NCBI GenBank assembly: GCA_001768195.1
Contig: MENI01000005.1
Span: 34,999 to 98,998, forward strand
Reading direction: 5' to 3'
Origin: Bacteroidetes bacterium GWA2_40_15
GTDB taxonomy: Bacteria > Bacteroidota > Bacteroidia > Bacteroidales > VadinHA17
Length of the DNA: 64,000 bases
Shown: positions 2,231 to 28,845 of the stretch, one piece after another
How the letters are laid out: each line of letters starts with the position of its first letter
Position numbering within the stretch: the stretch's first letter is position 1
The notes under the pieces: generated by a model
What the model was told of the DNA's origin: nothing
Seen by the model: the letters and a program-made list of their open reading frames with translations, nothing else
The model's database searches: none
Made by a program: the position numbers and the translations under genes

Positions 2231-3301
2231 CTAAATTACAAGGCTGTAAAGATTCTCAAGTTTATATAATTTCTGAAGATAGTTTATAACACTGGTGGAT
2301 CTGCTCCCAGACCTGCAATAGAAAGCAACTGCATCACAACCAGAAAATAGATTGATCTTACGACTGACATCATAATGGGGTATTGAGATTGTCTGAAAAC
2401 CAATGTCTTCATTATCCTCCTTGTCTCTGAGATCGATAACCAGAACTTTTGAGTTTTTTTCAAGCATTTTATTGAGTGCATCAGCGGATATTTCTTTGAC
2501 TGAATTATTCCTGCACGGACCATTATCTTCATATTCTCCCAATTCTGTAATCGGAGAAAATTCAAGATTTCTTTCAAATGAAGAAATCCAAGTATTAAAA
2601 TTGAGAGTGTCAATCATAAAGATCTTCCCTGAAAGGATTCCACCAAGTCCCAATATGATTTTGAAGACCTCTGTAGCCTGCATTGAACCTATTAAACCCG
2701 GAACAGATCCAATAACACCAAACTCTTCACAGGAAGGAACCTCAAGCGGATGAGGAGGTTCCGGATAAAGGCATCTAAGCGTTGGTCCATTATGGTAATT
2801 AAGCACCATAACCTGTCCTGAAAACTTATGTATTGCCCCGTAAACTAATGGCTTATTAAGTATTACGCAAGCATCATTTATTAAATATCGTGAAGCGAAA
2901 TTATCAGTACAATCAACAACTACATCATATTGTGAAATTAGTTTCAGAGCACATTCTTTATTTAACCTGATAAAATGAACATTAAAAATAACCTCCGGGT
3001 TCAGGATTTTCAGTCTCTCCCTTGCTACCAGAGGTTTAGGTTTTCCAATGTCTTTATGTGTATAAAGAACCTGCCTGTTTAGATTTGATTCATCGACCCA
3101 ATCATTATCTACAATACCAAGTGTCCCCACTCCAGCTGCTGTCAGATATTGAAGTACCGGGCATCCCAATGCACCTGCACCTACGACAAGAACGGAAGAT
3201 GCCTTTATCTTCATCTGCCCTTCTTTCCCTATTTCTGCCAGCCTTATCTGTCTGCTATATCTCGCAATCTCATCTTTCGTTAAAGTAGTATTACAGCGCA
3301 T
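2231..3301 (-). CDS. MoeB/ThiF-type adenylyltransferase with C-terminal rhodanese domain
   Basis: A 356-residue two-domain protein. Residues 1-250 form the E1-like adenylation domain: RYSRQIRL, nucleotide loop VVGAGALGCP, Asp/Arg region NLNRQVLY, and catalytic Cys in VPSCEEFGVIG. Residues about 265-356 are a rhodanese domain with active-site loop CRSGSRS. Enzymes of this build adenylate the Gly-Gly tail of ThiS/MoaD-type carriers, and the rhodanese Cys delivers sulfur, as in MoeBR/MoeZ. The first Cys of the usual CxxC zinc pair is replaced (GPTLRCLYPE) and the second pair is absent, so zinc is probably not bound. A second ThiF-like enzyme at 22025-22822 has the full zinc set. Its carrier partner is not adjacent. 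Confidence 0.85.
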   Translation of the reverse strand: MRCNTTLTKDEIARYSRQIRLAEIGKEGQMKIKASSVLVVGAGALGCPVLQYLTAAGVGTLGIVDNDWVDESNLNRQVLYTHKDIGKPKPLVARERLKILNPEVIFNVHFIRLNKECALKLISQYDVVVDCTDNFASRYLINDACVILNKPLVYGAIHKFSGQVMVLNYHNGPTLRCLYPEPPHPLEVPSCEEFGVIGSVPGLIGSMQATEVFKIILGLGGILSGKIFMIDTLNFNTWISSFERNLEFSPITELGEYEDNGPCRNNSVKEISADALNKMLEKNSKVLVIDLRDKEDNEDIGFQTISIPHYDVSRKINLFSGCDAVAFYCRSGSRSTSVINYLQKLYKLENLYSLVI

Positions 3302-3322: not shown

Positions 3323-3940
3323 TTATTCTTCAGTTTTTTTCTGATGACACTGCTTATCCAGATCAGACAGGACTTCATTCATTGAGCCGGTTCTGTATCC
3401 GGTTAAATCAATCGTGATGTAGATGAACCCTGATTTCTTACATATATCTGTAAGTTGCCTCTTTAATTCCCATGCTTTGTTCATTTCCTCAGGAATAAAT
3501 TCAAATCGGGCAAGGTTTTCGTGACTTCTGATCCTGAACTGAGTGAATCCAAGGTTCCTTACTTCAAATTCTGCCATTGCCAATCGATCGAGTTTAACTT
3601 TTGTTATCTTTTCACCATAAGGGAAACGTGATGCAAGGCAGGCATAAGATTGTTTTGTAGCTGTCGGAAGCTGAAGTTTTGTAGACAAGTCTCTTATGTC
3701 GGTTTTGGAGAATCCAGATTCTGCAAGTGATGTTGCTTCCTCAAGTTCGTAAAATGGATATGTGCTTGATGTGGCAGTAATCAACAACAGATTATCTCCA
3801 TAAATATCTTTTGCGATTCTTGAAAGAAATGTGCTGTCAACTCCACCGGAAAAAGCTATGACTGCACTTTTATAAATATTAAGCCTGGCTTTCAGATTTT
3901 CTAATTTTTTTTCCATTTTTATATTATTATCATTCCCCAT
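3323..3940 (-). CDS. larE: LarE-like sulfur transferase with internal deletion
   Basis: The 205-residue frame keeps both ends of LarE, the ATP-dependent sacrificial sulfur transferase that builds the nickel-pincer cofactor. The N-terminal PP-loop SGGVDST sits near residues 31-37. The C-terminal half has KTDIRDLS, the Cys-bearing ACLASRFPYG block, and TIDLTGYRTGSMN. LarE proteins are normally about 270 residues. The roughly 70-75 residues that should follow TSLAE, including the conserved aromatic/Cys segment and the DG-NxDD region, are missing, with the frame preserved. It is therefore probably inactive. No larB, larC or nickel-dependent racemase is nearby. The start could also be the Met at codon 9. 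Confidence 0.7.
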   Translation of the reverse strand: MGNDNNIKMEKKLENLKARLNIYKSAVIAFSGGVDSTFLSRIAKDIYGDNLLLITATSSTYPFYELEEATSLAESGFSKTDIRDLSTKLQLPTATKQSYACLASRFPYGEKITKVKLDRLAMAEFEVRNLGFTQFRIRSHENLARFEFIPEEMNKAWELKRQLTDICKKSGFIYITIDLTGYRTGSMNEVLSDLDKQCHQKKTEE

Positions 3941-11869: not shown

Positions 11870-12640
11870 TTATTTATTAATGGTATAGTAGTTTACAATT
11901 TCATCTGCCAGACCCTCGTATGTCGATTTTGCAGAAGTTACAAGGCAGGTTAACCCATGTTGTTCGACGGCACAGGCGGTTACTTTCCCGATGCTGGCAA
12001 CCCGTAGTTCGGGGTTTATATTTTCATGGCCAATAGCATCTGCAAAGTTATCGACACCAGAGGGGCTGGTAAATAAGACCAAATCGTAGCGGTTATTTTT
12101 AATACGTTCAATGGTATCGTTGGCCGCAACCTGAGCTTTTATAGCCTTATACACATCGATACGAGTGACGTTGGCGATTTTTGAAAGCCGTGTATGCAGG
12201 GTATCCGGGGCAAGATTCCCCAACGGAAGCAAAATGTTGCAGTTTTGCAGGGACTCTTTTTCTAACAGTTCATCTACAAGGTTTTCGGCTGTATTCTTAG
12301 TACCGGAATAATCTGCTTTTCTACCGTTATTTTCCAACTCCAACGCAGTTTTAACTCCTACTGCAGCTATTTTTACCCCTGATGGAATTTTGGAGACTTT
12401 ACCAATTTCTTTTAATAAACGATGGAAATATCTTACCCCGTTTGCACTGGTAAAAATAATCCATTGAAATTTTTCAATTTGCCATATAGCTTTTTGAATG
12501 GCAGGAGTTTGCTCCACTGCCAACAATTCTGTCATGGGAAAATCAACCACTGTTGCACCCAATTGTTCAAAAATATTCCTTATTTCAACTGATTTATGAA
12601 TGCTGACTGTTGATATAAAAACTTTTCCCTGAAGTATCAT
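11870..12640 (-). CDS. hemD: Uroporphyrinogen-III synthase
   Basis: 256 residues with the two-lobed HemD fold. Recognisable segments are FTSANGVRYFHRLL in lobe 1, VGVKTALELENNG, and FTSPSGVDNFADAI in lobe 2. It closes and inverts ring D of hydroxymethylbilane to uroporphyrinogen III, the branch point to heme and siroheme, both served by genes in this window. It overlaps hemC by 4 bases. HemD sequences are poorly conserved, so the operon position adds much of the confidence. Confidence 0.9.
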   Translation of the reverse strand: MILQGKVFISTVSIHKSVEIRNIFEQLGATVVDFPMTELLAVEQTPAIQKAIWQIEKFQWIIFTSANGVRYFHRLLKEIGKVSKIPSGVKIAAVGVKTALELENNGRKADYSGTKNTAENLVDELLEKESLQNCNILLPLGNLAPDTLHTRLSKIANVTRIDVYKAIKAQVAANDTIERIKNNRYDLVLFTSPSGVDNFADAIGHENINPELRVASIGKVTACAVEQHGLTCLVTSAKSTYEGLADEIVNYYTINK

Positions 12641-13575
12641 ATATTGTTTAAGAGTCTGATTTTCTGTATCAATTCCTTCGCTCCTTTATCAAGAAATTTT
12701 TTTGCAAGCACAAGAGCTGTTTTTTCGGCCGTTCTGATTTCTCCTTCCACAGATTCTCTAATCATTCCCGAACCGTCAGTATCAGAAACAACTCCGGATA
12801 TTTTAAAATTCTTATCGTCTGATTCTGAAAAGCATCCAATCGGAACCTGACATCCTCCTTCAAGAGCGCTTAGAAAAACTCTTTCAGCCTTCACCGCAAT
12901 TAAAGAGGGAATGTGATTAATTTCTAATACCATGGATTCTGTTTCATGATCATCATCCTTTATTTCTATGGCAATAGCTCCCTGACTGATAGCGGGAGTC
13001 ATGATAGAAGGATCAAGAATTTCAGAAATTTTATCCTGATATCCTAAACGCTGTAAACCTGCAGCAGCCATTATCATAGCAGTGCAATATCCTTCATCCA
13101 TTTTCTGAAGACGTGTATCAACATTACCACGGATATCCACAACCCTTAACTTACTGTTAAAATGAAGAAGCTGAGCCTTACGTCGCAGACTTGAAGTTGC
13201 AACAATATCATTCTCATCAAGCTCAGCTAGTTTTTTACCATTTATGCTTACCAGAGCATCGCGAACGTCACCACGCTTCAGTACTCCGGCAATTATTAAT
13301 CCTTCAGGCAATTCAGTGGGCATATCTTTTAAGCTGTGAACAGCCATATCGGCTTCGTTCTGAAGAAGTGAATTTTCAAGTTCCCTGGTAAAAAGACCCT
13401 TATCGCCTATTTTTGAGAGAGCAACATCCAGTATCTTATCTCCTCTGGTTTTAATGATCTGTATTTCGAAGACATTGCCCGGAAAGTGCTTTTCAAGTTG
13501 CTCTTTTACCAGATTTGCCTGGCAGAGAGCTAATTTGCTTCCACGAGTAGCAATTTTTACAGAGCAATTAGTCAT
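12637..13575 (-). CDS. hemC: Hydroxymethylbilane synthase (porphobilinogen deaminase)
   Basis: 312 residues, normal length. It has KIATRGSKLAL at the start, DKGLFTRELE, the catalytic HSLKDMPTELPEG, SSLRRKAQLL and the dipyrromethane-cofactor Cys in ALEGGCQVPIG. It polymerises four porphobilinogens. It overlaps hemA by 8 bases and hemD by 4, so translation is probably coupled. A second, degenerate HemC-like lobe is fused to CobA at 16898-18040. Confidence 0.95.
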   Translation of the reverse strand: MTNCSVKIATRGSKLALCQANLVKEQLEKHFPGNVFEIQIIKTRGDKILDVALSKIGDKGLFTRELENSLLQNEADMAVHSLKDMPTELPEGLIIAGVLKRGDVRDALVSINGKKLAELDENDIVATSSLRRKAQLLHFNSKLRVVDIRGNVDTRLQKMDEGYCTAMIMAAAGLQRLGYQDKISEILDPSIMTPAISQGAIAIEIKDDDHETESMVLEINHIPSLIAVKAERVFLSALEGGCQVPIGCFSESDDKNFKISGVVSDTDGSGMIRESVEGEIRTAEKTALVLAKKFLDKGAKELIQKIRLLNNI

Positions 13576-16897: not shown

Positions 16898-18040
16898 CTA
16901 TTTTATTATAGAATGATTTACCATTACGGTATTACCGGCAATTACGAGTAAAGGGCTTTGAAATATATTTGTTCCTTTCAGGATTTCATATAACCTTCCG
17001 GTAATTATTCGTTGTCCGGGTAATGAAATGTTTTCAATAAGGGCAATGGGTATATTCGTTGGTCTTCCTGCTGCGATCAGTTTATTCAGAATGATGTGTA
17101 AAGTCGATGCCGGCATATAAAATACGATAGTATCTGTATCGGGGATGTGTATACTGCTTTCAGGATGCCCGGTGCAAAAGGACACTGATGAAGAGATACC
17201 TCGTTGGGTAAGAGGAATGCCGGCAATGGCAGCAGCTGCCAAAGCGGAAGTGATGCCGGGAATGATCTCCACATCGATCAGTCGTTGTTTCAGATAACAG
17301 AACTCCTCACCGCCACGGCCAAAGATCATGGGGTCGCCGCCTTTGATCCGCACTACCTTTTTACCGCTGATAGCCGCTCTGTATAACAGTTCATTGATCT
17401 CATCCTGTTCTTTCATGTGCAGATCTTTTCGTTTACCTGCTTTGATCTTTTTACCTTTAAAGTTTTCGAGGTAGGTATCATCCAACAAACTGTCATAAAA
17501 AATAATATCTGCCTGTTGTAATGCCTTCTGTGCTTTTATTGTGAGTAATTCCGGGTCACCCGGCCCAAAGCCGGCAATATAAACTTTCCCGTATTTTTTT
17601 CGGCAATCAATAGGGGAAAAGAGATTTTTAAGAAATAAATTTTCTTTTTTAGCAATTACAACCAGTTGTTCTTGTAAGGATTTAGTTTTAACCTGTGATG
17701 CCGGTTCATTAAGTTTTCTATTGTTATTGCTGATCATGCAGTCGGTCTTATCAGACGAATCAGTTAAAGCAATGACATCAAGACCTGCCGGTAAAGGATA
17801 CGGCAGATTTTTGGCTGAATGAATGGCTATGTCTCCTTCGTCTGATAGGATCGCTTCATCAAGTTTGCGGGTAAAAAAATCTGTTGGTGTATTGGCATAC
17901 AAAGATATCTCTTTGTGTTTATCGACATGACTTTGAATTTTTAATATCTCGTATGTAACATTTGGAAGAAGCATCATTAATTCCTCAACCTGTTTGATTA
18001 CAAGGCTACCCGAACGAGTTACTATTTTAAGTCTGTTCAT
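16898..18040 (-). CDS. cobA: Uroporphyrinogen-III C-methyltransferase with N-terminal degenerate HemC lobe
   Basis: 380 residues from ATG 18038-18040 (MNRLKIVTRSGSL). Residues about 1-110 resemble HemC domain 1 (FFTRKLDEAIL, IAIHSAKNLPYPLPAGLD), but the catalytic Asp of HSLKDMP is Asn. Residues about 125-150 (KKENLFLKNLFS) resemble the HemC C-terminal lobe, so the middle lobe seems missing. Residues about 150-380 are a complete SAM methyltransferase: VYIAGFGPGDPELLT, VVRIKGGDPMIFGRGGEE, PGITSALAAAAIAGIPLTQRG. It makes precorrin-2 from uroporphyrinogen III. It is the last gene of the sulfur operon and supplies siroheme to the sulfite reductase. Confidence 0.88.
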   Translation of the reverse strand: MNRLKIVTRSGSLVIKQVEELMMLLPNVTYEILKIQSHVDKHKEISLYANTPTDFFTRKLDEAILSDEGDIAIHSAKNLPYPLPAGLDVIALTDSSDKTDCMISNNNRKLNEPASQVKTKSLQEQLVVIAKKENLFLKNLFSPIDCRKKYGKVYIAGFGPGDPELLTIKAQKALQQADIIFYDSLLDDTYLENFKGKKIKAGKRKDLHMKEQDEINELLYRAAISGKKVVRIKGGDPMIFGRGGEEFCYLKQRLIDVEIIPGITSALAAAAIAGIPLTQRGISSSVSFCTGHPESSIHIPDTDTIVFYMPASTLHIILNKLIAAGRPTNIPIALIENISLPGQRIITGRLYEILKGTNIFQSPLLVIAGNTVMVNHSIIK

Positions 18041-18512
18041 GTTCAGTTTTTTCAGATGTATCATTCGCAATCAAACGTTTTATTTTATTTCTCCATTCGA
18101 TGGCTTTTTTAACATTTATGCCGTTTGAACTCACGGCAATTGTCAGGTAATCTTTTTTAAAGACAGCAGGAGTAATGAAATCACATAACCCCGGATCATC
18201 CACCACGTTTACTAATATCCCTAATTTAACAGCGTCTGATTTTATTTGTGCGTTCACTGTCCTGTTGCTAGTGCAGGCATATACAATCGAATAATGATGC
18301 AAATCATAAAAATGATATTCTTTGGTTATCTGCTTAAAACCGGTTTGTCGGATATCTTCACATATTTCTATCGCCAAAATGGTTATTTTATCAGTAAACA
18401 TTGAAAGGGCCGACAGTTTCCGTGCTGCAATCCTGCCACCACCTATGATCAAAATATGTTTGTTTGAGATATCTAACCAAACAGGTAAATAAATATTCTG
18501 TTTAGATTTCAT
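18027..18512 (-). CDS. Precorrin-2 dehydrogenase / sirohydrochlorin ferrochelatase-type (CysG N-domain)
   Basis: 161 residues. It begins YLPVWLDISNKHILIIGGGRIAARKL, the NAD-binding site of Met8/CysG-N enzymes. It continues with YACTSNRTVN and VNVVDDPGLCDFITPAVF, whose Asp is the general base for dehydrogenation and chelation. It ends soon after the AVSSNGINVKKA segment, so only the first domain of the ~200-residue family is complete. It oxidises precorrin-2 to sirohydrochlorin and may insert iron. It overlaps the CobA fusion by about 14 bases and follows the sulfite reductase by about 20, so siroheme is made where it is used. Confidence 0.88.
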   Translation of the reverse strand: MKSKQNIYLPVWLDISNKHILIIGGGRIAARKLSALSMFTDKITILAIEICEDIRQTGFKQITKEYHFYDLHHYSIVYACTSNRTVNAQIKSDAVKLGILVNVVDDPGLCDFITPAVFKKDYLTIAVSSNGINVKKAIEWRNKIKRLIANDTSEKTEHEQT

Positions 18513-18532
18513 ATTCTTTGGTACATATCGGG

Positions 18533-20857
18533 TTAGTTTTTTTGTATCAAAACCGACCAGTAGTTATCTATCCTGTCCTGTTTTATAATGTTGTGTCCTT
18601 CACTTTTAACTGAACCCGGTACATTCTCTATGGGTTCACCATCATCAAGCAGTATTTCTAACAGATCGCCTGATTTCAAGGCTGAAAGTTCTATTTTTGT
18701 TTTAACAAAATTCAGCGGACATTTTATTCCTCTAAAATCCTTGATTTTAACAACTTCTGCCTTTTTATCAACTGTAACGGGTTTTGCTGCTTCTGTTTTG
18801 AAATGGAGTGAATCGTCCATGTTCTCGTATAATTCGATTACCGCATCTGATAATAAATAAATATTGTCCTTGTCAGGAATTAAATTATCGTTAGGATTTT
18901 GTTTAGTTTTTTTGACCAGGTATTTATATTCCTGATTGATCAAACCTTCATCAATGAAATTATTTATAAAAGCATCAAATAATTCCTGATCATTCTTAGG
19001 TTCAATGCCTTTTGTAATGAGCAGCATGCGTGATGATGAGTATATTATAGCATACAGATATTCATTAATCGCGGCTCTGTCTGATGTCTGCAAAATCTTT
19101 TCTTTGTTATTTATGATCGAATTCATGTCCAGGTCGATCAGGTCGAAAAGACCTGCGGAACATTCACCTAATCCACGTCCCACCAATGAGAAAATGTTCT
19201 CGCTGCCCCAATCGAAATAATAATTTTTATCTTCTTCGAAATCGGGGATATTATTGAATTTGCTGCATAAATCAGTTATGTTTTTCTTGCCTTCCGATGC
19301 GATATATGATGAGAAGTTTTTATAATTGATTTTTTTACTTAGATATTTCTCCAGGAGTTTAACAGTAAACTCAGGCAGATCACGAGCACTGATTTTGCCA
19401 ACTTGCTCAGCAAGTTTTGCGTTATATTCAGATTGAACGGCCCCTGCAACAATCTCATATGCCGGGTACATACGATCATTACGACCAACTATGCCATAAA
19501 AACCAAGATCAGCAGAAGCCTGCTGTCCGCATGAATTAGGGCACCCGGAAATATTAATCTTTATATCTCCCAGTTCGTCCAGGGCCAGCTTGCTTTTGGC
19601 AAGTTCTTTTCTTAGTCCGTTTAAAGCCCCCCTTGATAGACATATACCCAGACGGCAGGTATCAGCTCCTGTGCAGGATGCCATTGTATTTAAGAGTAAA
19701 GGCTCCCCTGTATTTATACCTGTTTTTAACAGAAAATTGTAAATATTACCCAGATATTGTTCAGGGATATTACGCAAATGGATATTCTGACGCATTGAGA
19801 ATCTGATTACGTCATTGCCAAATTGCCTGAGATATTCACCTAAACTATGCGCAATATCAGCCGGAACATTTCCAAAAATAAAAGGCACGATGATGCTGTA
19901 AAACCCGTCCTGCTTTTGGGTTTTTACATATCGTTTTCTCCACAGGTCAAACTCGGAACCGATGACATCCTGGGGTTTCAGATCAGGTAAATTTGTTGTG
20001 CTTTTAATATCGGGAATGATGATCTGGTTGTTTCCGGCATTTTTGAGTTCATTATAAATTTGTTGATATAAATTAAATACATTTCCTTTCCCGAGTTTAT
20101 AGAACACGTAACGTAGGCGGGCTTTATGTTTGTTTTTTCGGTTACCATAACGTGAGAATAACTTTTTTGCAGCATCGGCCACAAGACCAATCTCACCCGA
20201 CGGAATAAATTCGAACAACACCGGGCTTACCATGGGTTTAAGGCCAAGCGAACCACCAATGAATACCTTGAATCCTTTTACGCCGTCCTTTTCTTTAGCA
20301 ATGAATCCCAAATCGTTGAAAGTTGAATATGCCGTATCTTCTTCTGTATTTGAAAAGGCAATCTTGAATTTTCGCGGGAGGGTCCAGGAATCGGCCTCGG
20401 CAATCAACTTATTAGTTAAAGCAACCGTATAAGGAAAAACATCAAATGTTTCATTCGGGTCAATACCCGAATCAACAGATGCCATTATATTTCTCACGGT
20501 ATTACCACCGCCGCCCCTGGATGCCAGACCGATCTGATACAGGTCTTTCAGGATATTGACCGTCCTCTGTAATGTAATATTCTGAATCTGAATTTCCTGC
20601 CTTGTTGTAATATGCAACAATTCAGAGCCATACTTTTTAGCAATAGAAGCCACCTGTTCCAGTTGAGAAGGACTTATATAACCACCGGCGCAGCGAACAC
20701 GAACCATGAATGTGCCGTCTTTGCGTTGTTCGTATATCCCCATTGGCACGCGTGTTGCCTTAAATTTGGCCGGCTCAATTTTCTTATCCAGGAAATCGGA
20801 AATAAGAGCTTCGTAATTTTCAATCTCTTCTGTCAGGTTATCTGGTAATGAATACAT
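18533..20857 (-). CDS. Siroheme sulfite (nitrite/sulfite) reductase with C-terminal TusA domain
   Basis: 774 residues. Residues 1-500 form a siroheme/[4Fe-4S] reductase: TTRQEIQIQNI, RGGGGNTVRNIMASV, and cluster Cys in CTGADTCRLGI and GCPNSCGQ. Residues about 510-690 are helical and HEPN-like without a clear family. Residues about 700-774 are a TusA-like domain (FRGIKCPLNFVKTKIEL, with the persulfide Cys). Sulfite is preferred over nitrite as substrate because every neighbour handles sulfur: siroheme genes follow, and a JAMM protease, TusA, DsrE, HesA/ThiF, PLP enzyme and CysK precede. The fused TusA domain could receive the sulfide as persulfide. Confidence 0.9.
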   Translation of the reverse strand: MYSLPDNLTEEIENYEALISDFLDKKIEPAKFKATRVPMGIYEQRKDGTFMVRVRCAGGYISPSQLEQVASIAKKYGSELLHITTRQEIQIQNITLQRTVNILKDLYQIGLASRGGGGNTVRNIMASVDSGIDPNETFDVFPYTVALTNKLIAEADSWTLPRKFKIAFSNTEEDTAYSTFNDLGFIAKEKDGVKGFKVFIGGSLGLKPMVSPVLFEFIPSGEIGLVADAAKKLFSRYGNRKNKHKARLRYVFYKLGKGNVFNLYQQIYNELKNAGNNQIIIPDIKSTTNLPDLKPQDVIGSEFDLWRKRYVKTQKQDGFYSIIVPFIFGNVPADIAHSLGEYLRQFGNDVIRFSMRQNIHLRNIPEQYLGNIYNFLLKTGINTGEPLLLNTMASCTGADTCRLGICLSRGALNGLRKELAKSKLALDELGDIKINISGCPNSCGQQASADLGFYGIVGRNDRMYPAYEIVAGAVQSEYNAKLAEQVGKISARDLPEFTVKLLEKYLSKKINYKNFSSYIASEGKKNITDLCSKFNNIPDFEEDKNYYFDWGSENIFSLVGRGLGECSAGLFDLIDLDMNSIINNKEKILQTSDRAAINEYLYAIIYSSSRMLLITKGIEPKNDQELFDAFINNFIDEGLINQEYKYLVKKTKQNPNDNLIPDKDNIYLLSDAVIELYENMDDSLHFKTEAAKPVTVDKKAEVVKIKDFRGIKCPLNFVKTKIELSALKSGDLLEILLDDGEPIENVPGSVKSEGHNIIKQDRIDNYWSVLIQKN

Positions 20858-20869
20858 AATCAGGCATAT

Positions 20870-21268
20870 TTAATTTATTATTTGTATGGTTTCTTCTTCT
20901 ACTTTTGATTTTTGAATATTATATGCTTTAATATGTGGAGTTTTATCAGCTAATGATATTATGAAATACAATATATCCGGATCATAAGCCATCCGGATAT
21001 CTTCTTCCGACGGGCGTGCCGGGGATTTGGGATGACTGTGATAATTGGCCATGATACCTATTCCTGCTTCCCTGACCTTTCTCACAACTGTGAATTGCTC
21101 CTCAGGATCAAATGAAAAGTGTTCTTCGCTATTATCCACGTTTCTTATTTCATAACTTTGAGTTATCGTATCGCTATTGCCGGCTAAGTAGCCGCATGCT
21201 TCAATGGGGTAAACTTTTTGCGCATGCAAAATAATTTGATCTACTATTTTTTGCCTGATTTTTATCAT
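20870..21268 (-). CDS. JAMM/MPN+ metalloprotease (HcyD/Mec+-like)
   Basis: 132 residues. It has the zinc-isopeptidase signature: Glu in IEACGYLAG, then NYHSHPKSPARPSEEDI (HxHP-x6-S-x2-D). Bacterial relatives either trim C-terminal residues after the Gly-Gly of ThiS-like sulfur carriers or release the amino acid from a carrier adduct (Mec+ in Mycobacterium, HcyD in Wolinella). The carrier at 24148-24360 in the same operon ends GGGEK, so trimming is needed before adenylation. It overlaps the tusA-like gene by 4 bases and precedes the sulfite reductase by 12. Confidence 0.9.
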   Translation of the reverse strand: MIKIRQKIVDQIILHAQKVYPIEACGYLAGNSDTITQSYEIRNVDNSEEHFSFDPEEQFTVVRKVREAGIGIMANYHSHPKSPARPSEEDIRMAYDPDILYFIISLADKTPHIKAYNIQKSKVEEETIQIIN

Positions 21269-21489
21269 TTCTTAATGCGTATTTTATAAATATTATCATG
21301 CAAATTTTCAATACCTAAAATCTCAAAACCTTGTTCGGTAGAGCTCTTGGGGATGTTTTCCAAAGGTTCGCCTTCTGTCACCAACACTTCAAGTATATCA
21401 TCCTTCGCGATCTTTGCCAGTTGTATTTTGGTTTTTACAAAGGTCATCGGGCAATGTTCCTTAGTTATATCTAAATTGAATGTTGCCAT
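21265..21489 (-). CDS. TusA-family sulfurtransferase
   Basis: 74 residues with the single-domain TusA fold. The persulfide-carrying Cys is in EHCPMTFVKTKIQL near residue 13, followed by EVLVTEGEPLENIPKS and the usual C-terminal strand. TusA proteins relay sulfane sulfur between partners, often DsrE-type proteins. The next gene upstream is DsrE-like, 11 bases away. A second TusA domain is fused to the adjacent sulfite reductase. Confidence 0.9.
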   Translation of the reverse strand: MATFNLDITKEHCPMTFVKTKIQLAKIAKDDILEVLVTEGEPLENIPKSSTEQGFEILGIENLHDNIYKIRIKK

Positions 21490-21500
21490 ATTTAAAATTA

Positions 21501-21983
21501 TTAAATGAATATTCTGTCCCCGCCTTGTGAAATCTCCATGAATTTAGCCACTCCCAGAACTTCTTTATTTACCTCGGGAATAAAATCATTGATAGTAAGA
21601 CCCAGGATTTGCATTGACATTTCGCAGGTGTAAAGTTTAACCCCAACTGCAATAGATGCATCAATCAGTTCTTTTAAAGATGCTACATTCCTTTTTCTCA
21701 TCATATAGTTCATCAATTTCGGACTGATATTGCAGAAATTCAACCTGCTGAGCGGAACATTATCAATACCACCCATCAGAAATCCGAAGAAGCGCGCAAG
21801 AAATCCTTTACCCGTGAATACCCTTCCTTTTTTCTTTTTAATGGCATTTAAGCCCCAAAATGTAAAGAAGATATTTACTTCGTAATTGACAGCAGCCGAG
21901 CCACTTGCAAGCGTAAACGCTGCAACCAGTTTATCGAAATCGCCACTAAAGCAGATAATTGATAGTTTTTTCCTGGGTTCCAT
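21501..21983 (-). CDS. DsrE/DsrF/DrsH-like family protein
   Basis: 160 residues of the longer DsrE-like type (DrsE_2). It has SIICFSGDFDKLVAAFTLA, IFFTFWGLNAIKKKK, an FLMGGIDNVPLSRLN loop and the active-site Cys in GVKLYTCEMSMQILGL. Such proteins bind sulfane sulfur and pair with TusA and rhodaneses. It sits between the HesA-like and tusA genes, consistent with feeding sulfur into the thiocarboxylate carrier. Confidence 0.88.
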   Translation of the reverse strand: MEPRKKLSIICFSGDFDKLVAAFTLASGSAAVNYEVNIFFTFWGLNAIKKKKGRVFTGKGFLARFFGFLMGGIDNVPLSRLNFCNISPKLMNYMMRKRNVASLKELIDASIAVGVKLYTCEMSMQILGLTINDFIPEVNKEVLGVAKFMEISQGGDRIFI

Positions 21984-22024
21984 GATTTTTTATGATTTTT
22001 AGATTATGCAATTTTTTAATTTTG

Positions 22025-22822
22025 TTACAGGTCGCATACCGGCATTTCTTCCAGTTTCAATTCGGTGATCGTGGGGTTTATACCGCACACCGGGCAATTT
22101 TCATTACGGTTGAAATGGACTGAACGGAAACTCATGGACAATGCATTAAATATTAAAAACCGGTTTGTGAGCAGTTCACCAATACCTGTTAAATATTTCA
22201 ATGCTTCGGTAGCCTGTATGGTACCCAATATTCCGGCGACTGATCCTAATACCCCTGCTTGCGAACAGCTTGGAACCAGTCCTTTAGGGGGCGGACTATT
22301 AAAAACGCAACGATAACATGTATTCCCGGGGGTATAGGTCATCGTTTGACCATCGAATTTTATAATGCCTCCATGTGAAAAGGACTTACCTGATAAAACG
22401 CATGCATCATTTATCAGGAATTTAGTTGGAAAATTGTCTGTACCATCCAGGATAAAATCGTATTCCGAAAAGATATCGTTGATATTATCGGTTGTAAGAA
22501 GCTCGTGGTAAGTCTTAACTTTAACATCCGGATTGATTTTTTCAATTTTTTCTTTGGCAGAAATAACTTTTGGCCGGTTGATGTCGGGCGTTGTATGAAT
22601 AATCTGACGCTGAAGGTTAGTAATGTCAACCACATCATTATCGATTATGCCTATAGTACCTACACCGGCAGCTGCCAGATATAAAGCTGCAGGTGATCCA
22701 AGTCCTCCTGCCCCTACAACAAGTACTTTCCCTTCAAGCAGCTTTATTTGCCCTTCAACACCTACATCTTTTAAAATGATATGACGGCTGTACCTTTCAA
22801 TTTGGATATCTGTAAAATTCAT
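22025..22822 (-). CDS. HesA/MoeB/ThiF-family adenylyltransferase (HcyF-like)
   Basis: 265 residues. It begins RYSRHIILKDVGVEGQ and has nucleotide loop VVGAGGLGSPAALYLAAAGVG, NLQRQIIHTTPDI, catalytic Cys in VPSCSQAGVLG, and both zinc pairs (CYRC and CPVCG). It adenylates the C-terminal Gly of a ubiquitin-like sulfur carrier so that it can be thiocarboxylated; the obvious partner is the carrier gene at 24148-24360. It lies 26 bases downstream of the PLP enzyme. It differs from the MoeB-rhodanese at 2231-3301 by having zinc ligands and no rhodanese domain. Confidence 0.9.
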   Translation of the reverse strand: MNFTDIQIERYSRHIILKDVGVEGQIKLLEGKVLVVGAGGLGSPAALYLAAAGVGTIGIIDNDVVDITNLQRQIIHTTPDINRPKVISAKEKIEKINPDVKVKTYHELLTTDNINDIFSEYDFILDGTDNFPTKFLINDACVLSGKSFSHGGIIKFDGQTMTYTPGNTCYRCVFNSPPPKGLVPSCSQAGVLGSVAGILGTIQATEALKYLTGIGELLTNRFLIFNALSMSFRSVHFNRNENCPVCGINPTITELKLEEMPVCDL

Positions 22823-22848
22823 CGCTGTTTTTGATTGATTCTAATTTC

Positions 22849-24093
22849 CTACTTAATGTTTTTTGCCAATGATTTTAACGATTGTGAAATATCTTCGATC
22901 AGATCTTCCGGTTCTTCAATACCAACAGCCATCCGTATCATCGTATCGCTTACACCAAGCTCTTGCCGGATTTCTGGCGTGTATTCGCAGTAGATGGTTG
23001 ACGCGGGATGAATAGCCAGTGTTTTATTGTCATTCAGGTTTGTAGCTCTTCGTATGATTTTAAGATTGTTTAAAAATTCAAAACAGTGTTCTTTTTTTAC
23101 CAGATCGAAAGTTAGCAATGCGCCGTGGAGTTTACCAAACTGTTTCTTACTTATTTGATGAAACTCAGAAGTAGCCAATCCCGGGTAATTAACACTGGTG
23201 ATCAGCTTTTGTTTTTCGAGCCATTCAGCTAATACCTGTGTATTATGGCACGACTTATTTATTCTTAAATGAAACGTTTCCAGTCCCAATGTTTGCAAAT
23301 AGGCATTATGTGCCGATAAGCAAGCGCCTATGTTTCTGAATACTTCTTTCCTCAGCTTGGCAATGAAGGTGAATTTGCCAAACTTCTTAGCATCAGGTGA
23401 AAACTTCGGAATACTGTTCCAATCAAATGTACCATGATCAATAATAATTCCACCCATCGAGGTAGCTCCACCTGAGATGTATTTTGTTGAAGAAATAACC
23501 TCAATATCGATACCTGTTTCTTTGGCATTGAAAAAGCATAGCGGAGTAATGGTTGAATCAGCGATCAAAACCAGATGGTGATTCTTTCCTATTGTCGCGA
23601 TTTTTTTTATGTCGGTTACTTCAAGCTGAGGATTGGTGATGGTTTCAAGAAAAATACCACGGGTATTTGCATCGGTCAGTTTTTCTATACACTCCGGCCG
23701 GGTCAAATCAGCGTATTTAAATGATACACCAAAGGGTTTTAGGGTGTGTTCGAAAAATGAATAGGTGTTTCCGAATAAATTTTTTGATGTAATAAAATTA
23801 TCACCTGCTTGTGCAATACAAAAAAATACATTGGAAATGGCTGCCATACCTGATGATAAAGCAATAACACCCGACGAATCGGTCAGATTTTTAATTACGT
23901 TTTCAAAATGCTCTACGGTCGGATTAGACAAACGGGCATAAACATGTAATGGTTTAGTGCCCCTGAATGCGTCTTCAAGTGCCTCTGCATTTTTTGTTTC
24001 AAATGCAACATTATCGTAGACAGGCATACGTAAAGCGCCATGTGTATCCTGTTTACTGAAAGGTGTGTGTATGGCTTTTGTGGCAAATTTCAT
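22849..24093 (-). CDS. MetY-type O-acetylhomoserine sulfhydrylase (Cys/Met PLP enzyme)
   Basis: 414 residues of the trans-sulfuration PLP family. It has YARLSNPTVEHFE, ALSSGMAAISNVF, VLIADSTITPL and the PLP-binding Lys in EVISSTKYISGGATSMGG. The length and the insertion after the PLP lysine fit O-acetylhomoserine sulfhydrylases better than cystathionine synthases or lyases. In the thiocarboxylate pathway MetY uses carrier-bound sulfur to form carrier-homocysteine, later released by the JAMM protease. It is flanked by the carrier gene and the HcyF-like gene. Confidence 0.88.
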   Translation of the reverse strand: MKFATKAIHTPFSKQDTHGALRMPVYDNVAFETKNAEALEDAFRGTKPLHVYARLSNPTVEHFENVIKNLTDSSGVIALSSGMAAISNVFFCIAQAGDNFITSKNLFGNTYSFFEHTLKPFGVSFKYADLTRPECIEKLTDANTRGIFLETITNPQLEVTDIKKIATIGKNHHLVLIADSTITPLCFFNAKETGIDIEVISSTKYISGGATSMGGIIIDHGTFDWNSIPKFSPDAKKFGKFTFIAKLRKEVFRNIGACLSAHNAYLQTLGLETFHLRINKSCHNTQVLAEWLEKQKLITSVNYPGLATSEFHQISKKQFGKLHGALLTFDLVKKEHCFEFLNNLKIIRRATNLNDNKTLAIHPASTIYCEYTPEIRQELGVSDTMIRMAVGIEEPEDLIEDISQSLKSLAKNIK

Positions 24094-24147
24094 TTTTATT
24101 GTTATATATTTAAAACTTAGTACAGGATAATTCTTAATTCCGGATCT

Positions 24148-24360
24148 TTATTTTTCTCCGCCTCCCATAAAATATAGAAAATCTAATTCGTCATTTTCTT
24201 TCAATGAAATTTTATCAAAAATTTTTTTATCAATGAAATTTCCGTTTAATTGAACCGAAACCATTTCTATTGACTCAACTTTATTCAATTTTAGTAAATC
24301 CGAGATGGAAACTGCATTTTTTTGAATTGATTGGTCTTTACCATTTACCTTTATTTTCAT
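24148..24360 (-). CDS. ThiS/MoaD-like sulfur carrier with capped Gly-Gly tail (HcyS-like)
   Basis: 70 residues with a ubiquitin-like beta-grasp pattern: MKIKVNGKDQSI, a helix with SDLLKLNKV, then VSVQLNGNFI and ENDELDFLYFMGGGEK. The tail ends in three Gly followed by Glu-Lys, not in a free Gly-Gly. Carriers of this kind must be trimmed before the terminal Gly can be adenylated and turned into a thiocarboxylate, and a JAMM protease is in the operon. It lies between cysK (20 bases upstream) and the MetY gene. A role in thiamine synthesis is less likely, as no thi genes are near. Confidence 0.88.
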   Translation of the reverse strand: MKIKVNGKDQSIQKNAVSISDLLKLNKVESIEMVSVQLNGNFIDKKIFDKISLKENDELDFLYFMGGGEK

Positions 24361-24380
24361 TATGATATGATTTTAACTGT

Positions 24381-25370
24381 TTAATTTATGTGTTGTCCAT
24401 GTTTTTCTGAAAAGACTGATAAAGAGTTTTCTATCATATCGGGGTTATAAAGTGGTGTTGATAAATACCGTTCACCCGAGTCAGGTAAAATGACAACGAT
24501 TTTTTTACCTTTGTTTTCAGGACGTTTAGCCACTTGCAAGGCAGCATAAACAGCGGCACCCGATGATATTCCTGCCAGCAGACCCTCGGTACGCGCTAAC
24601 AGACGACTAATCCGAAAAGCATCTTCATTTTCTACCTTTATTATTTCATCAATAACCGATTTGTTCAAAACATCAGGCACAAAGCCTGCACCAATACCCT
24701 GGATTTTATGAGGGCCAGGGTTACCCCCTGACAATACAGGGGAGTCAGCAGGTTCAATACCTATAATTTTGATTTGAGGTCTGCGCTTTTTAAGGATCTC
24801 TCCAACACCTGTGATTGTTCCACCGGTGCCAATGCCGGCAATAAAAATATCAACATTACCTTTTGTGTCTCTCCAAATTTCTTCAGCTGTAGTTCTCTTG
24901 TGTATTTCAGGATTAGCAGGATTTTTAAATTGCTGCGGCATGAATGAATGAGCTATGTTTTCTGTAAGTTCTGCCGCCTTATTTAATGCGCCGGTCATTC
25001 CCTTTTCCCCCGGAGTCAAAACAATCTCAGCGCCTAATGCTTTTAATAAATTTCTTCTTTCAACACTCATTGTTTCGGGCATCGTCAGAATTAGTTTGTA
25101 TCCTTTAGCAGCTGCGATAAATGCAAGAGCTATCCCTGTGTTGCCGCTTGTGGGCTCTATGATAATTGTATCTTTGTTTATCAGCCCTTTTTCTTCGGCA
25201 TCTTTAATCATTGAATAGCCGATTCTGTCTTTAACACTGCTGCCTGGATTGAAAAATTCAAGCTTGGCTATTATGGTTGCCAGAGTATTATTTACCTGAT
25301 TAAAATTTGATAACTCCAGTAAAGGCGTATTGCCTATAAGTTCTGTTAAATTTTTTGCAACTTTTGCCAT
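24381..25370 (-). CDS. cysK: Cysteine synthase (O-acetylserine sulfhydrylase)
   Basis: 329 residues. It has the PLP Lys in [14 protein letters not shown], substrate loop [12 protein letters not shown], phosphate-binding [12 protein letters not shown] and C-terminal [10 protein letters not shown]. It makes cysteine from O-acetylserine and sulfide, or possibly from carrier thiocarboxylate as in CysM-type enzymes. It is the first gene of the operon that runs to cobA, with tandem inverted repeats in its promoter region. Confidence 0.93.
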
Positions 25371-25426: not shown

Positions 25427-25468
25427 AATACCTCGTTTTGGGTATTTCATATACCTAAATACAGGTAT
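25427..25468 (-). promoter_or_regulatory. Tandem inverted repeats upstream of the cysK operon
   Basis: Two adjacent dyads occupy the gap between the LuxR-type regulator gene and cysK. The first is AATACC (25427-25432) with GGTATT (25441-25446); the second is ATACCT (25451-25456) with AGGTAT (25463-25468). Repeated half-sites of AGGTAT character at this spacing look like a dimeric operator. The adjacent regulator at 25478-26137 is an obvious candidate ligand, by inference only. Confidence 0.45.
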
Positions 25469-25477
25469 TAAATTAAT

Positions 25478-26137
25478 TCAGATATAATATTCGGTAGTGT
25501 CAACGATGCCTGTTTTAACGGCATACATGATAAGCTCGGAGGTGTTGTTAATGCCAAGCTTTTTGAAAATGTTCTTTCGATGTGTATTGACAGTATGAAC
25601 ACTTAAAAAATCTTTAGCTGCTATTTTTTTTGTTGAAAGACCTTGCGCTATGAGACGGATGATCTCAAATTCTTTTTTAGTTAAATGGATATTAGTACTC
25701 TTATTCTTACTAATAGTGAGGTTCTCTTTCAGCAAAGCTTCAACCACTTCCTTACATAAAAAATTTTCATTCTTTTCGAGAGATGTAAGCGCATTTAGCA
25801 GCTCATCTTTAGTGCAGTACTTTAATAAAATATGGGTAATTCCGAATTCTAATATTTTAATTATATTTTCATTAACAGAATCTCCGGTCAGAACGAGGAT
25901 GCTGGAAGAAGGGAATATCCCGGTTAGTTTTGCTAAATAAGATATTAAAAAATCATTCAACCGGTATGGATCAATAATCAAAATAGAAGGAGTATTATTT
26001 TCCAAAAAATCAAATAACTCATTATTAGATTCAATTGAGCCAATAATATCGTAATTACCGGTATTTTTCAAAACCGTTGTAATTCCTTCCCGGGTAAGTA
26101 CCTGTGAGTCGGCTATAAGTATTTTAGTTAATCCCAT
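25478..26137 (-). CDS. NarL/LuxR-type response regulator
   Basis: 219 residues. The receiver domain (1-125) has an Asp-Ser near residue 10 (LIADSQVLTREG), the likely phospho-acceptor in ILIIDPYR, and Lys in ILLKYC. The surroundings of the acceptor are atypical, so phosphorylation may be altered. The C-terminal LuxR helix-turn-helix (about 148-210) has LTKKEFEIIRLIAQGLSTKK and SVHTVNTHRKNIFKKLG. No kinase is adjacent. Its stop lies about 10 bases from the tandem dyads ahead of cysK, so it may control the sulfur operon. Confidence 0.85.
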   Translation of the reverse strand: MGLTKILIADSQVLTREGITTVLKNTGNYDIIGSIESNNELFDFLENNTPSILIIDPYRLNDFLISYLAKLTGIFPSSSILVLTGDSVNENIIKILEFGITHILLKYCTKDELLNALTSLEKNENFLCKEVVEALLKENLTISKNKSTNIHLTKKEFEIIRLIAQGLSTKKIAAKDFLSVHTVNTHRKNIFKKLGINNTSELIMYAVKTGIVDTTEYYI

Positions 26138-26358: not shown

Positions 26359-28395
26359 TTATTTGTTATAATCCAAATCCACCACAACACCCCCTCTGAA
26401 CCATATGCCGGGTTGGATTATACCTCCAAAATCGTAATAGTGGGCATTATAAATATTGGAGGCTTCGGTATAGACGGTATAATGTTTATCTTTCCAATAT
26501 AACTTTGCATCGGTTAACAAGAATGACTTATAAGACACTACCTGTCCTTTAGCATCCTGATAAACACTATTGCGGTCATGATAGGTTAACCGGCATGAGA
26601 TATTTAGTTTCCATGCAACCCTGACATCAATACTTGAAGTAATCTGGTGCCTCAGATAGTCGAGCGCGTATTTTGAGAGCATATTGTTGACATTCGAATC
26701 TGCTTGTAAAAAAGCATAGGATATCCTGATAGCCTGGATTCTTTCAAATGTACTTTCTTTCGGAGGTGATAATGTCAATGAGCATTCCATCCCTGTAAAA
26801 TTTATTTGTGTATGATTCATACTTCGCCAGATGATACTATCAGGTGAAGGATTTTTTACCCAGTCAATCATGTTGTAACCCCAACGCCGGAATGCACTGA
26901 TATAGCCTTTGAGAAATGAATTATTGTATTTCATACCTCCTTCAAGTGTAATGGCTTCTTCGGGCTTTAAACCGGGATTACCTTGCTGGGTGGGGCTTTT
27001 ATAAAACATATCAGTAAATGTGGGCATACGCAACGTTTTATTAGCAGACGAATATAATTTGAAATGATCGTTCAACCTGTAACTCACATCAATACCGGGA
27101 TAAATTCTGAATCCTGGGAGGTTTGAGTTATGATGAGCCATGGCGCCTGCAGTAACCGTGAGCATTTTCCACGAAACAGAATGTTCGGCATATATACTGG
27201 TGTTCATCCGGTTGTAATATTTTGTATAAAAAACGCTGTCGGAACCGGGTACTTCTATTGGTACATTCAGTGTATTCCCTAACACATTGCTTACAATATG
27301 TTCGTTGCGGAAATCAATTCCAAGACTGGTTTTTCCGAAACGGTGTGTTGTCCAGACATTCAGGTTCAGTCCTGCAGTATTGGTTTGATGGTGATTAAAA
27401 GGTATGGAATCATTGTTTCGTTTCAGTTCGAAACGATCGAGATGGCGGCGCAGGTAAATGGTTGGTGCGAATTTTATTAAAGTATTGCTTTGGTATTTCA
27501 AATTCACAAATTCTGTCTTTGTTGCTTCATACTGATCCGGATATTTTAATGAATAAAAACTATTTGCTCCGAAATCTTTTTTATTGTACCCTGTTTGAAA
27601 GTCAATTGCACCGGCTTTGGATGTGTACCCGGCCTGGTAAAAGATATTGGTGCCCGAAAAATCGGTATTTTTAATATATCCATCGGACGACATCCGGTTA
27701 AGACTGACAAAATGTTTGAAATTACCAATGGTGTTTGAAATATTGCCGGCTGCTTTATACATCCCGTATTGCCCGAACATTCCTGATAAGCGGATATGAT
27801 TTGGTTTGCTGTTACCGGTAATAATATTTATGGCCCCATTGAAGGCATTTGGGCCAAATGATTTAGCTGCAGGACCTTGCAAAATTTCAATACGTTCTAT
27901 GCTTTCAACGTCTATCGGCAGGTCCAGATTATGGTGTCCGGTTTGTGGGTCGGTGATGTTAACACCATTGAGGAGGATTAAAGTCTGATCGAAGGTTCCA
28001 CCGCGGATGCTTATGTCGGCTTGTACTCCAAGAGGTCCTCGCTGGCGGATATCCACTCCGGCAATATATCGGAGCAGATCATTAAGGTTCTGAGCAGGCG
28101 CCCGCTCAATTTCAGATTTGGTAATAACTGTAACGATACGCGCAGCCTGTTGTGCTTCAATCGGCGTACGCCCGGCTGTGACCACCACTTCGTCCAGCTC
28201 ATAGCTTTTGATCTGCAAGCTGTCGCTACCTCGCTGTGCCTGTGTTTTTTCGGGGATTGATATAATATTGTATGCAATACATAATGTGCAAATTTTTATT
28301 ACTTTATGCAAGGTTTTAAATACCGCATAGTTTTTCCGGCTCCACCGGTGAAAAGCTACTATTGAAATATCTGTTCTTTTTTTTTGTTTCATCAT
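26359..28395 (-). CDS. TonB-dependent outer-membrane receptor
   Basis: 678 residues from the ATG at 28393-28395. A longer in-frame start exists, but its first 29 codons look non-coding. There is a long signal region ending near KTQAQ, a TonB-box-like LDEVVVTAGR, a plug domain (LLRYIAGVDIRQRG, DISIRGGTFDQTLILLNGV, QGPAAKSFGPNAFNGAINII) and a beta-barrel ending in FRGGVVVDLDYNK. It is BtuB-like in size and layout, lacking the CarboxypepD-like domain of SusC-type receptors. The substrate cannot be told. I found no cobalamin riboswitch upstream. Confidence 0.88.
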   Translation of the reverse strand: MMKQKKRTDISIVAFHRWSRKNYAVFKTLHKVIKICTLCIAYNIISIPEKTQAQRGSDSLQIKSYELDEVVVTAGRTPIEAQQAARIVTVITKSEIERAPAQNLNDLLRYIAGVDIRQRGPLGVQADISIRGGTFDQTLILLNGVNITDPQTGHHNLDLPIDVESIERIEILQGPAAKSFGPNAFNGAINIITGNSKPNHIRLSGMFGQYGMYKAAGNISNTIGNFKHFVSLNRMSSDGYIKNTDFSGTNIFYQAGYTSKAGAIDFQTGYNKKDFGANSFYSLKYPDQYEATKTEFVNLKYQSNTLIKFAPTIYLRRHLDRFELKRNNDSIPFNHHQTNTAGLNLNVWTTHRFGKTSLGIDFRNEHIVSNVLGNTLNVPIEVPGSDSVFYTKYYNRMNTSIYAEHSVSWKMLTVTAGAMAHHNSNLPGFRIYPGIDVSYRLNDHFKLYSSANKTLRMPTFTDMFYKSPTQQGNPGLKPEEAITLEGGMKYNNSFLKGYISAFRRWGYNMIDWVKNPSPDSIIWRSMNHTQINFTGMECSLTLSPPKESTFERIQAIRISYAFLQADSNVNNMLSKYALDYLRHQITSSIDVRVAWKLNISCRLTYHDRNSVYQDAKGQVVSYKSFLLTDAKLYWKDKHYTVYTEASNIYNAHYYDFGGIIQPGIWFRGGVVVDLDYNK

Positions 28396-28524
28396 AATGA
28401 ATAATTTAATTGGTAAACCCGGCAAATATAGCCTTATTATAAACACTCCGGAATATCCGGGATAAATAGCTGCAAGCCTCAATCTGTAAGTTAAAGGAGA
28501 ATTCAGAAGATGGAAGTCAGAAGA

Positions 28525-28845
28525 CTAAAATGTTAAAACCCGGTCAGCCCAAACAACCAAATTAACACAGTCAATCATTGTTGAAATTGGACACGCTTCT
28601 GTACTATCAAGTTGACGTGACTTCAAGCATGTTCCACAAGCAAGAATCTCTCCGCCTTCATTTACAAAGTTTCTGAGTTGTTCGTTAACGTTGAATTTTT
28701 CGTGTGTTAAGCCTTCGCATTCAACGGCTTCACCCATTAAAAATACTTTTACTTCATGCCCCTGCTTTTTGGCGGTTACCGCAAAACGAAAAGCATTCCA
28801 GGCTTTCTCGTATTCTTTGGTTTCGATAATAATTCCGATTTTCAT
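28525..28845 (-). CDS. DsrE-family sulfur-relay protein
   Basis: 106 residues. It begins MKIGIIIETKEYEKAWNAFR and has KVFLMGEAVECEGL and the conserved active-site Cys pair in ILACGTCLKSRQ. The fold and motif match small DsrE/YchN-like proteins that carry persulfides. Two close relatives occur at 39057-39413 and 39481-39906, the second with the same CGTC-xSR motif. Confidence 0.85.
   Translation of the reverse strand: MKIGIIIETKEYEKAWNAFRFAVTAKKQGHEVKVFLMGEAVECEGLTHEKFNVNEQLRNFVNEGGEILACGTCLKSRQLDSTEACPISTMIDCVNLVVWADRVLTF

Follow-up and report, generated by a model that had tools for sequence, protein, structure and literature searches.

A sulfite reductase with its own TusA domain in an operon that probably makes homocysteine through a carrier protein in a Bacteroidales bacterium

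How does the sulfur of sulfite reach an amino acid when the sulfite reductase carries a sulfur-relay domain of its own? This question is raised by a locus of Bacteroidetes bacterium GWA2_40_15 (GenBank assembly GCA_001768195.1), which we analyzed within a stretch of 64,000 nucleotides of contig MENI01000005.1 (positions 34,999 to 98,998; hereafter the window). Open reading frames together with Pfam and NCBIfam profiles placed ten consecutive genes on the minus strand at 16898-25370 of the window, in the order cysK, ThiS-type carrier, metY, hesA, dsrE2, tusA, JAMM, sulfite reductase (SiR), Met8/CysG-N and CobA-HemC fusion. The operon probably turns sulfite into homocysteine, and perhaps cysteine, via small sulfur carrier proteins. 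As judged from the sequence, we put the probability at about three in four that it is a sulfite-to-homocysteine operon of the HcyS type, with relay, carrier, MetY and JAMM steps. Its genes are as follows.

24381..25370, minus strand: cysK, cysteine synthase A type (TIGR01139, 474 bits; cut-off 351)
24148..24360, minus strand: HcyS-like ThiS-type sulfur carrier; C-terminus FLYFMGGG-EK, with a tail after the glycines
22849..24093, minus strand: MetY, O-acetylhomoserine sulfhydrylase type, carrier-linked group; nearest solved structure 3ri6
22025..22822, minus strand: HesA/ThiF/MoeB E1-like adenylyltransferase, HcyF-like; no rhodanese domain, two CxxC pairs
21501..21983, minus strand: DsrE2-family protein; single conserved cysteine C120
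21265..21489, minus strand: stand-alone TusA of the EHCPMTFVK type
20870..21268, minus strand: JAMM/Prok-JAB protease, HcyD-like; E23/H77/H79/S87/D90 kept
18533..20857, minus strand: siroheme SiR with a C-terminal extra domain and a fused TusA domain (CPLNFVK, Cys713)
18027..18512, minus strand: Met8/CysG N-terminal-like protein (siroheme)
16898..18070, minus strand: uroporphyrinogen-III methyltransferase (CobA) fused to a truncated HemC domain (siroheme)

The original prediction, made from the letters of the window, had described eight of these genes as one minus-strand operon, and that description holds: all eight lie in 18533-25370, each has a Pfam match above cut-off, and the gaps from cysK to SiR are, in order, 20, 54, 26, 41, 11, -4 and 12 bases. 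It had also named a sulfite reductase with a single TusA and had added siroheme genes. Both genes are there, but the TusA domain fused to SiR itself had been missed, hence there are two TusAs; the siroheme genes (16898-18512) do continue the operon and had been left outside it as drawn. The operon is real and ordinary in kind, and its part list is unusual. The kind is already known from Iyer 2006 (PMC1779556), where row 4e of Table 1 gives, for Wolinella among others, a ThiS/MoaD-like protein, JAB, SirA (TusA), sulfite reductase and O-acetylhomoserine sulfhydrylase, and where the E1 of such operons is always without rhodanese. The window's operon shares with type 4e the ThiS/MoaD protein, the JAB protein, the rhodanese-free E1, TusA and the sulfur-assimilation genes. 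It differs in that the accessible part of that paper names neither DsrE2 nor a SiR-TusA fusion, although it does name a ThiS-SiR fusion in actinobacteria (PMC1779556). What varies here is the SiR-TusA fusion, DsrE2 with a second type of TusA, and cysK.

We compared the window with the best 80 of at least 584 HesA relatives; because these were returned best first, the locus counts below lean to close relatives. A carrier was counted if a same-strand match of more than 40 bits lay no farther than 3 kb away, and a JAMM protein if it scored above 60 bits; the carrier count omits L097 (a short frame of 24 bits, ending FLYFMGGGQ) and MoaD-like carriers. By Pfam and TIGR01683 (52 bits, cut-off 37.45) the window's carrier belongs to the ThiS family. 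The C-terminus is GGG followed by at least one residue in all 47 counted carrier loci, unlike the ThiS paralogue of the same genome, which ends MSGG. Such a tail, to be cut off, fits a JAMM protease nearby, and one is found near 43 of the 47 carriers versus 6 of the 36 loci without a counted carrier (weaker matches of 45-58 bits occur in 7 more of these 36). The carrier loci without JAMM are L062, L104, L079 and L112, the last two of which end soon after. We infer that the EK tail is removable by the protease, whose residues E23, H77, H79, S87 and D90 are invariant in an alignment of three sequences; these residues make up the JAMM metal/catalytic motif. HesA is a protein of 265 aa with a ThiF domain only (PF00899, 281 bits), a GxGGLG motif and the two CxxC pairs.

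The best solved structure for MetY is 3ri6 (421 bits, the next 276), presumably the Wolinella enzyme. A 47-row tree places 36 of the 37 carrier-linked MetYs together with two stand-alone MetYs, apart from the canonical sulfhydrylases of the genome (SH-aLRT, the Shimodaira-Hasegawa-like approximate likelihood-ratio test, 96); this tree and the CysK tree below are quick searches with SH-aLRT support only. metY is near 34 of the 47 counted carriers, and within the phylum few genomes have a MetY of the 3ri6 type (5 of 395, own included, at E 1e-85). As for the supply of homoserine esters, the genome gave no match to the homoserine acetyltransferase MetX and has a MetA (463 bits) with GAPVE at its specificity site, which we read as the acetyl type.

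Krishnamoorthy and Begley reportedly described in 2011 a protein-thiocarboxylate methionine pathway of Wolinella succinogenes that consists of HcyS, HcyF, HcyD and MetY. The window's operon shares with it the ThiS-like carrier, the E1-like activator, JAMM and a MetY nearest 3ri6; extra here are DsrE2, a second TusA and cysK, together with a canonical sulfate/methionine island elsewhere in the genome (on contig C17, described below). Carrier, HesA, JAMM and SiR with TusA occur together in three loci of Campylobacterota (L073, L081 and L102). The homocysteine reading that came with the original prediction is thus sustained at the sequence level by the 3ri6-type MetY, the GGG-tailed carrier, the rhodanese-free E1, the JAMM catalytic residues, the recurring linkage and MetA. 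An extract of PMC6271081 states that the methionine sulfur of Wolinella comes from a protein thiocarboxylate, and according to a passage of Price et al. 2018 (PMC5764234) the pathway was absent from MetaCyc and KEGG in November 2017.

Whether other Bacteroidota have the same gene order had been left to a neighborhood search, and part of it recurs. The run cysK-carrier-metY-hesA-dsrE2-tusA-JAMM occurs in the window's order in G188 (locus L054), and without cysK in G074 (L053); both are Bacteroidota genomes of another family than the window's. In L053 and L054 the run is preceded by genes for siroheme, SiR and a second TusA, the last two being neighbors and not fused; in the window these functions come after the run. 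From this order, and from the two kinds of TusA, fused and DsrE2-linked, it follows that the window unites a SiR-TusA module and a DsrE2-TusA module. Three other loci (L066, L070 and L072) are HesA-DsrE2-TusA clusters of Bacteroidales, two of the three labelled Paludibacteraceae, with neither carrier nor JAMM detected nearby.

The TusA domain at the C-terminus of SiR spans residues 707-773 (Pfam, 64.5 bits). Because 12 of the 80 other loci carry the same fusion, we rejected the idea that it is unique to this genome; the 13 fused loci, window included, are labelled Campylobacterota, Planctomycetota, Bacillota, Pseudomonadota and Bacteroidota. The fused TusA reads CP[LM]NFV in 13 of 13 loci, and the stand-alone TusA adjoining a single-domain DsrE2 reads CPMTFV, likewise in 13 of 13; because of these signatures we regard them as distinct kinds. 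In the latter 13 loci the single-domain DsrE2 keeps a single cysteine (C120 in the window). Three of 16 DsrE2 matches differ: L094 and L112 (longer fused frames with CQM replacing CEM) and L124 (28 bits). The window's DsrE protein matches PF13686 DrsE_2 at 137.6 bits against a cut-off of 25 and stays under the NCBIfam DsrE2 cut-off (NF047629; 72 versus 210 bits), and DsrE2 is near 10 of the 47 carriers, nine of the ten in Bacteroidota. The window encodes one more small DsrE-family protein (PF02635, 54.8 bits) at 28525-28845, adjoining a TonB-dependent receptor gene (26359-28482).

The core of SiR was aligned for a selection of 21 sequences, namely 11 of the 13 fused (L091 and L095 omitted) and 10 unfused, and K163, K165 and the cluster cysteines C395, C401, C439 and C443 are kept in all of them. 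We take the lysines to be active-site lysines of the sulfite type and the four cysteines to be cluster ligands. At the second lysine position the nitrite reductases 3b0h and 3b0l show Asn; 3vlx, which we believe to be an engineered mutant, shows Lys. Cys566, in a GEC motif between the SiR core and TusA, is also invariant in 21 of 21, fused or unfused; it had been tried as a mark of TusA-fused enzymes and was rejected, for the motif count had missed the unfused ones. SiR relatives occur in 59 of the 395 genomes of the phylum (E 1e-60), and among those 59 the match reaches the TusA end only in the own genome and in G188, where it crosses two stop codons, TusA being encoded by a gene of its own. 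The operon's SiR is the only NIR_SIR gene found in its own assembly (127 contigs, 99.98% complete). A search for plasmid copies of the operon gave no match for the carrier; SiR matched 159 records, all below 60% identity and at most 31.6% among the ten matches listed. Among open-licence papers we found no literature on TusA with sulfite reductase.

A route of the HcyS type through this operon would run as follows. Siroheme SiR would reduce sulfite, the sulfur would exit via the cysteine of its fused TusA, and DsrE2 and the second TusA would relay it. JAMM would trim the EK tail, HesA would then adenylate the glycine end of the carrier, and the relayed sulfur would turn the adenylated carrier into a thiocarboxylate. 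MetY would couple this thiocarboxylate to O-acetylhomoserine, JAMM would free homocysteine, and CysK could make cysteine from the carrier or from free sulfide. The operon may reduce sulfite for the whole genome, with a regulator type and an operator common to the canonical sulfate island.

Several observations weigh against such a route. Family scores cannot separate the carrier and HesA from thiamine or molybdopterin proteins, because both pass those cut-offs: HesA is over the MoeB subfamily cut-off (277 versus 266 bits), and the 52 bits of the carrier against 37.45 would equally name an ordinary ThiS. The stand-alone MetY tested is nearest 3ri6 too (394 bits, next 260), both stand-alone MetYs are in genomes without a match to the operon's JAMM, and the operon MetY of L054 is no closer to 3ri6 (332) than to 8sf5 (334). 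We rejected 3ri6 likeness as proof of carrier use, since stand-alone 3ri6-type MetYs occur in these two JAMM-less genomes (the carrier was not sought there). The solved structures nearest to SiR are nitrite reductases (3b0h, 155 bits), and the genome has two canonical O-acetylhomoserine sulfhydrylases and a second cysteine-synthase-type enzyme. The operon shares with sulfur oxidizers a DsrE2-family protein adjoining TusA, whereas its own context is assimilatory; moreover, in an excerpt of PMC4175335, Metallosphaera DsrE2B was inert to six sulfur compounds and did not accept a thiosulfate group from TusA, showing no sulfur transfer.

The presence of cysK led to the claim, made in the original prediction, that one carrier serves both cysteine and homocysteine. 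The operon's CysK would then accept the carrier thiocarboxylate as CysM does with CysO. We hold this tentatively, by analogy, and with the odds somewhat against it. Of the 47 carriers, 17 have a cysK (above 250 bits) no more than 6 kb away, and 8 of the 9 Bacteroidota carrier-linked CysKs, the window's included, form one group (SH-aLRT 95; that of L054 is elsewhere, and the C21 dehydratase was left out of the tree). L062 reads palindrome-cysK-carrier-hesA, with no metY match in 9 kb on either side. In five Zetaproteobacteria and allied loci (L085, L086, L091, L095 and L108), CysK and HesA accompany a MoaD-like carrier that ends AIAGG. Four of the five also have SiR-TusA (L085 is cut by the contig end), and none has a MetY match, which suggests that SiR-TusA can serve cysteine synthesis with another carrier. 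However, the window's CysK scores as a cysteine synthase A, both CysM models being below cut-off (cysM TIGR01138, 298 versus 394 bits), and of the 36 loci that lack a counted carrier, 9 have a cysK nearby as well. Residues specific for carrier binding were sought in CysK (L066 and L070 were left out of this comparison), and only scattered differences appeared, none at the active site by eye. A cysE-like gene, named by eye, lies in the C17 island, so O-acetylserine is likely on hand for ordinary CysK chemistry. The claim therefore keeps the linkage of cysK and carrier in Bacteroidota loci and meets a CysK that is ordinary in residues and score. Mec+ we take to be a member of the mycobacterial CysO/CysM system. 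According to the relevant part of PMC12910592, that system has in common with the operon a carrier thiocarboxylate as sulfur donor and an enzyme of the cysteine synthase family; it differs from the ThiS-like tailed carrier, the CysK-type synthase and the E1 without rhodanese found here. A MoeZ-like E1 with rhodanese, expected of such a system, is lacking in the operon.

In what form does sulfur leave SiR? A persulfide on TusA needs zero-valent sulfur, since sulfide gives none without an oxidant, and for this reason the SiR-TusA fusion suggests capture of a partly reduced intermediate. DsrC captures such an intermediate from DsrAB. By analogy, SiR-TusA might hold a zero-valent persulfide on its fused TusA, perhaps passed there by Cys566, and relay it to the carrier, so that assimilation would end in a thiocarboxylate within a Bacteroidales regulon of LuxR-type regulators and ATACC-N8-GGTAT palindromes (below); we regard this fuller picture as doubtful. 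An SiR with a built-in TusA would allow the path of sulfur from sulfite reductase to carrier thiocarboxylate, to our knowledge not settled, to be studied in one protein. If sulfur does leave SiR as persulfide, textbook assimilation through free sulfide would not be the sole way.

Whether all of the sulfur stays bound can be asked of the rest of the genome. The C17 island holds a cysteine-synthase-type gene, cysE, a canonical metY (TIGR01326, 690 bits), a LuxR-type regulator, cystathionine synthase, a LarE-like gene, cysN, cysD and cysH (the names cysM, cysE, cysN, cysD, cysH and LarE were given by eye); no SiR gene was found in it. A second canonical O-acetylhomoserine sulfhydrylase is on C3 (620 bits). 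Because the only NIR_SIR gene found is the operon's, the operon must supply sulfite reduction for the C17 island too, and an SiR that serves the canonical MetY of that island argues against exclusive, strictly closed channelling. Sulfite had been predicted to be channelled without free sulfide: the SiR-TusA fusion fits this, whereas the canonical sulfhydrylases, with no other sulfite reductase found, do not. Taken together, the original interpretation is partly supported: its HcyS-type reading well, by sequence, whereas its two added ideas are conjectural.

Could SiR simply free sulfide for CysK, MetY and the C17 enzymes, with the carrier, E1, DsrE2 and TusA co-regulated for some other thiolation? 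With one NIR_SIR gene found in the genome and canonical sulfhydrylases sitting in an SiR-less island, some sulfide must be free unless it is imported; yet JAMM (43 of 47) and MetY (34 of 47) recur with carriers, and SiR is fused to TusA in 13 loci, which makes this alternative improbable. Scavenging of reduced or zero-valent sulfur (persulfide, thiosulfate) via DsrE2/TusA, with SiR a separate module beside it, would suit the tusA-dsrE2 pairs described for sulfur oxidizers in the excerpt of PMC4175335 and the loci L055-L060, which have CysK, carrier, HesA, DsrE2, TusA and JAMM and no SiR match in the stretch examined (the flanks of L058 and L060 are short), but it has a low probability, as SiR is in the same block in the window, L053 and L054 and the window's SiR has its own TusA.

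The last question is whether the sulfite-to-homocysteine operon and the C17 island are under common control. Two kinds of feature upstream of the operon bear on this.

25478..26137, minus strand: LuxR/NarL-type response regulator, directly upstream of the operon, 39% identical to its C17 paralogue
25428-25445 and 25451-25468: two palindromes ATACC-N8-GGTAT, a putative operator, between the regulator and cysK

The exact palindrome has 7 sites in the 4.77 Mb genome: the two just described, one between regulator and metY in C17, and four inside long open reading frames. Because the window is where the motif was first recognized, the C17 site is the sole independent one in this genome. Number alone was rejected as evidence. 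The motif read backward, as a control, gave 11 exact sites, so there is no overall enrichment, and with one mismatch allowed, shuffling reached the observed count in 22 of 100 cases for the window and in 15 of 200 for L146. It is placement that argues for the motif. Seventeen Bacteroidota loci (295,500 bases) have 9 exact sites in 8 loci, and 67 other loci (982,267 bases) have none; nine permuted palindromes gave 0 or 1 site in the former set and 0 to 3 in the latter. The palindrome lies before cysK in L055, L059, L060 and L062, before the carrier in L061 and L067, before MetY in L052, and in the divergent gap between regulator and MetY in L072; the second L060 palindrome is elsewhere in that locus. 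L059 and L060 are near copies, and the sites of L055 and L061 fall within frames called from the first start codon and probably overlong. The exact palindrome was not found in 9 of the 17 Bacteroidota loci, including L053 and L054, whose gene order is nearest to the window's. Of the 17, 7 have a related regulator, as against 0 of the 67 others. A 23-base spacing of tandem palindromes was also tried; two offsets scored highest, and the spacing is weak because the window pair feeds both.

From these placements we infer that a LuxR-type regulator and the palindrome may control both sulfur islands. A literature search for such a sulfur regulon gave either no paper or, among the papers listed, none that contained the term LuxR family, and the shared palindrome and regulator make a testable candidate for one.

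On the 3' side of the operon, the same strand carries heme synthesis genes, assigned by eye as hemA, hemC and others, along with a two-component pair. A full-length hemC, also assigned by eye, is at 12637-13575, besides the truncated HemC domain of the CobA fusion (16898-18070). That fusion was considered as a mark of the operon and rejected: the other loci compared have HemC and CobA on separate frames, or CobA alone. Outside the operon, 2231-3301 encodes a second E1-like protein of 356 aa, for which Pfam finds ThiF only and whose C-terminal tail looks rhodanese-like by eye (CRSG). This MoeB-type E1 adjoins a LarE-like PP-loop gene, named by eye, at 3323-3940; its product of 205 aa is shorter in mid-sequence than the 271 aa paralogue of the C17 island (L146 13116-13931).

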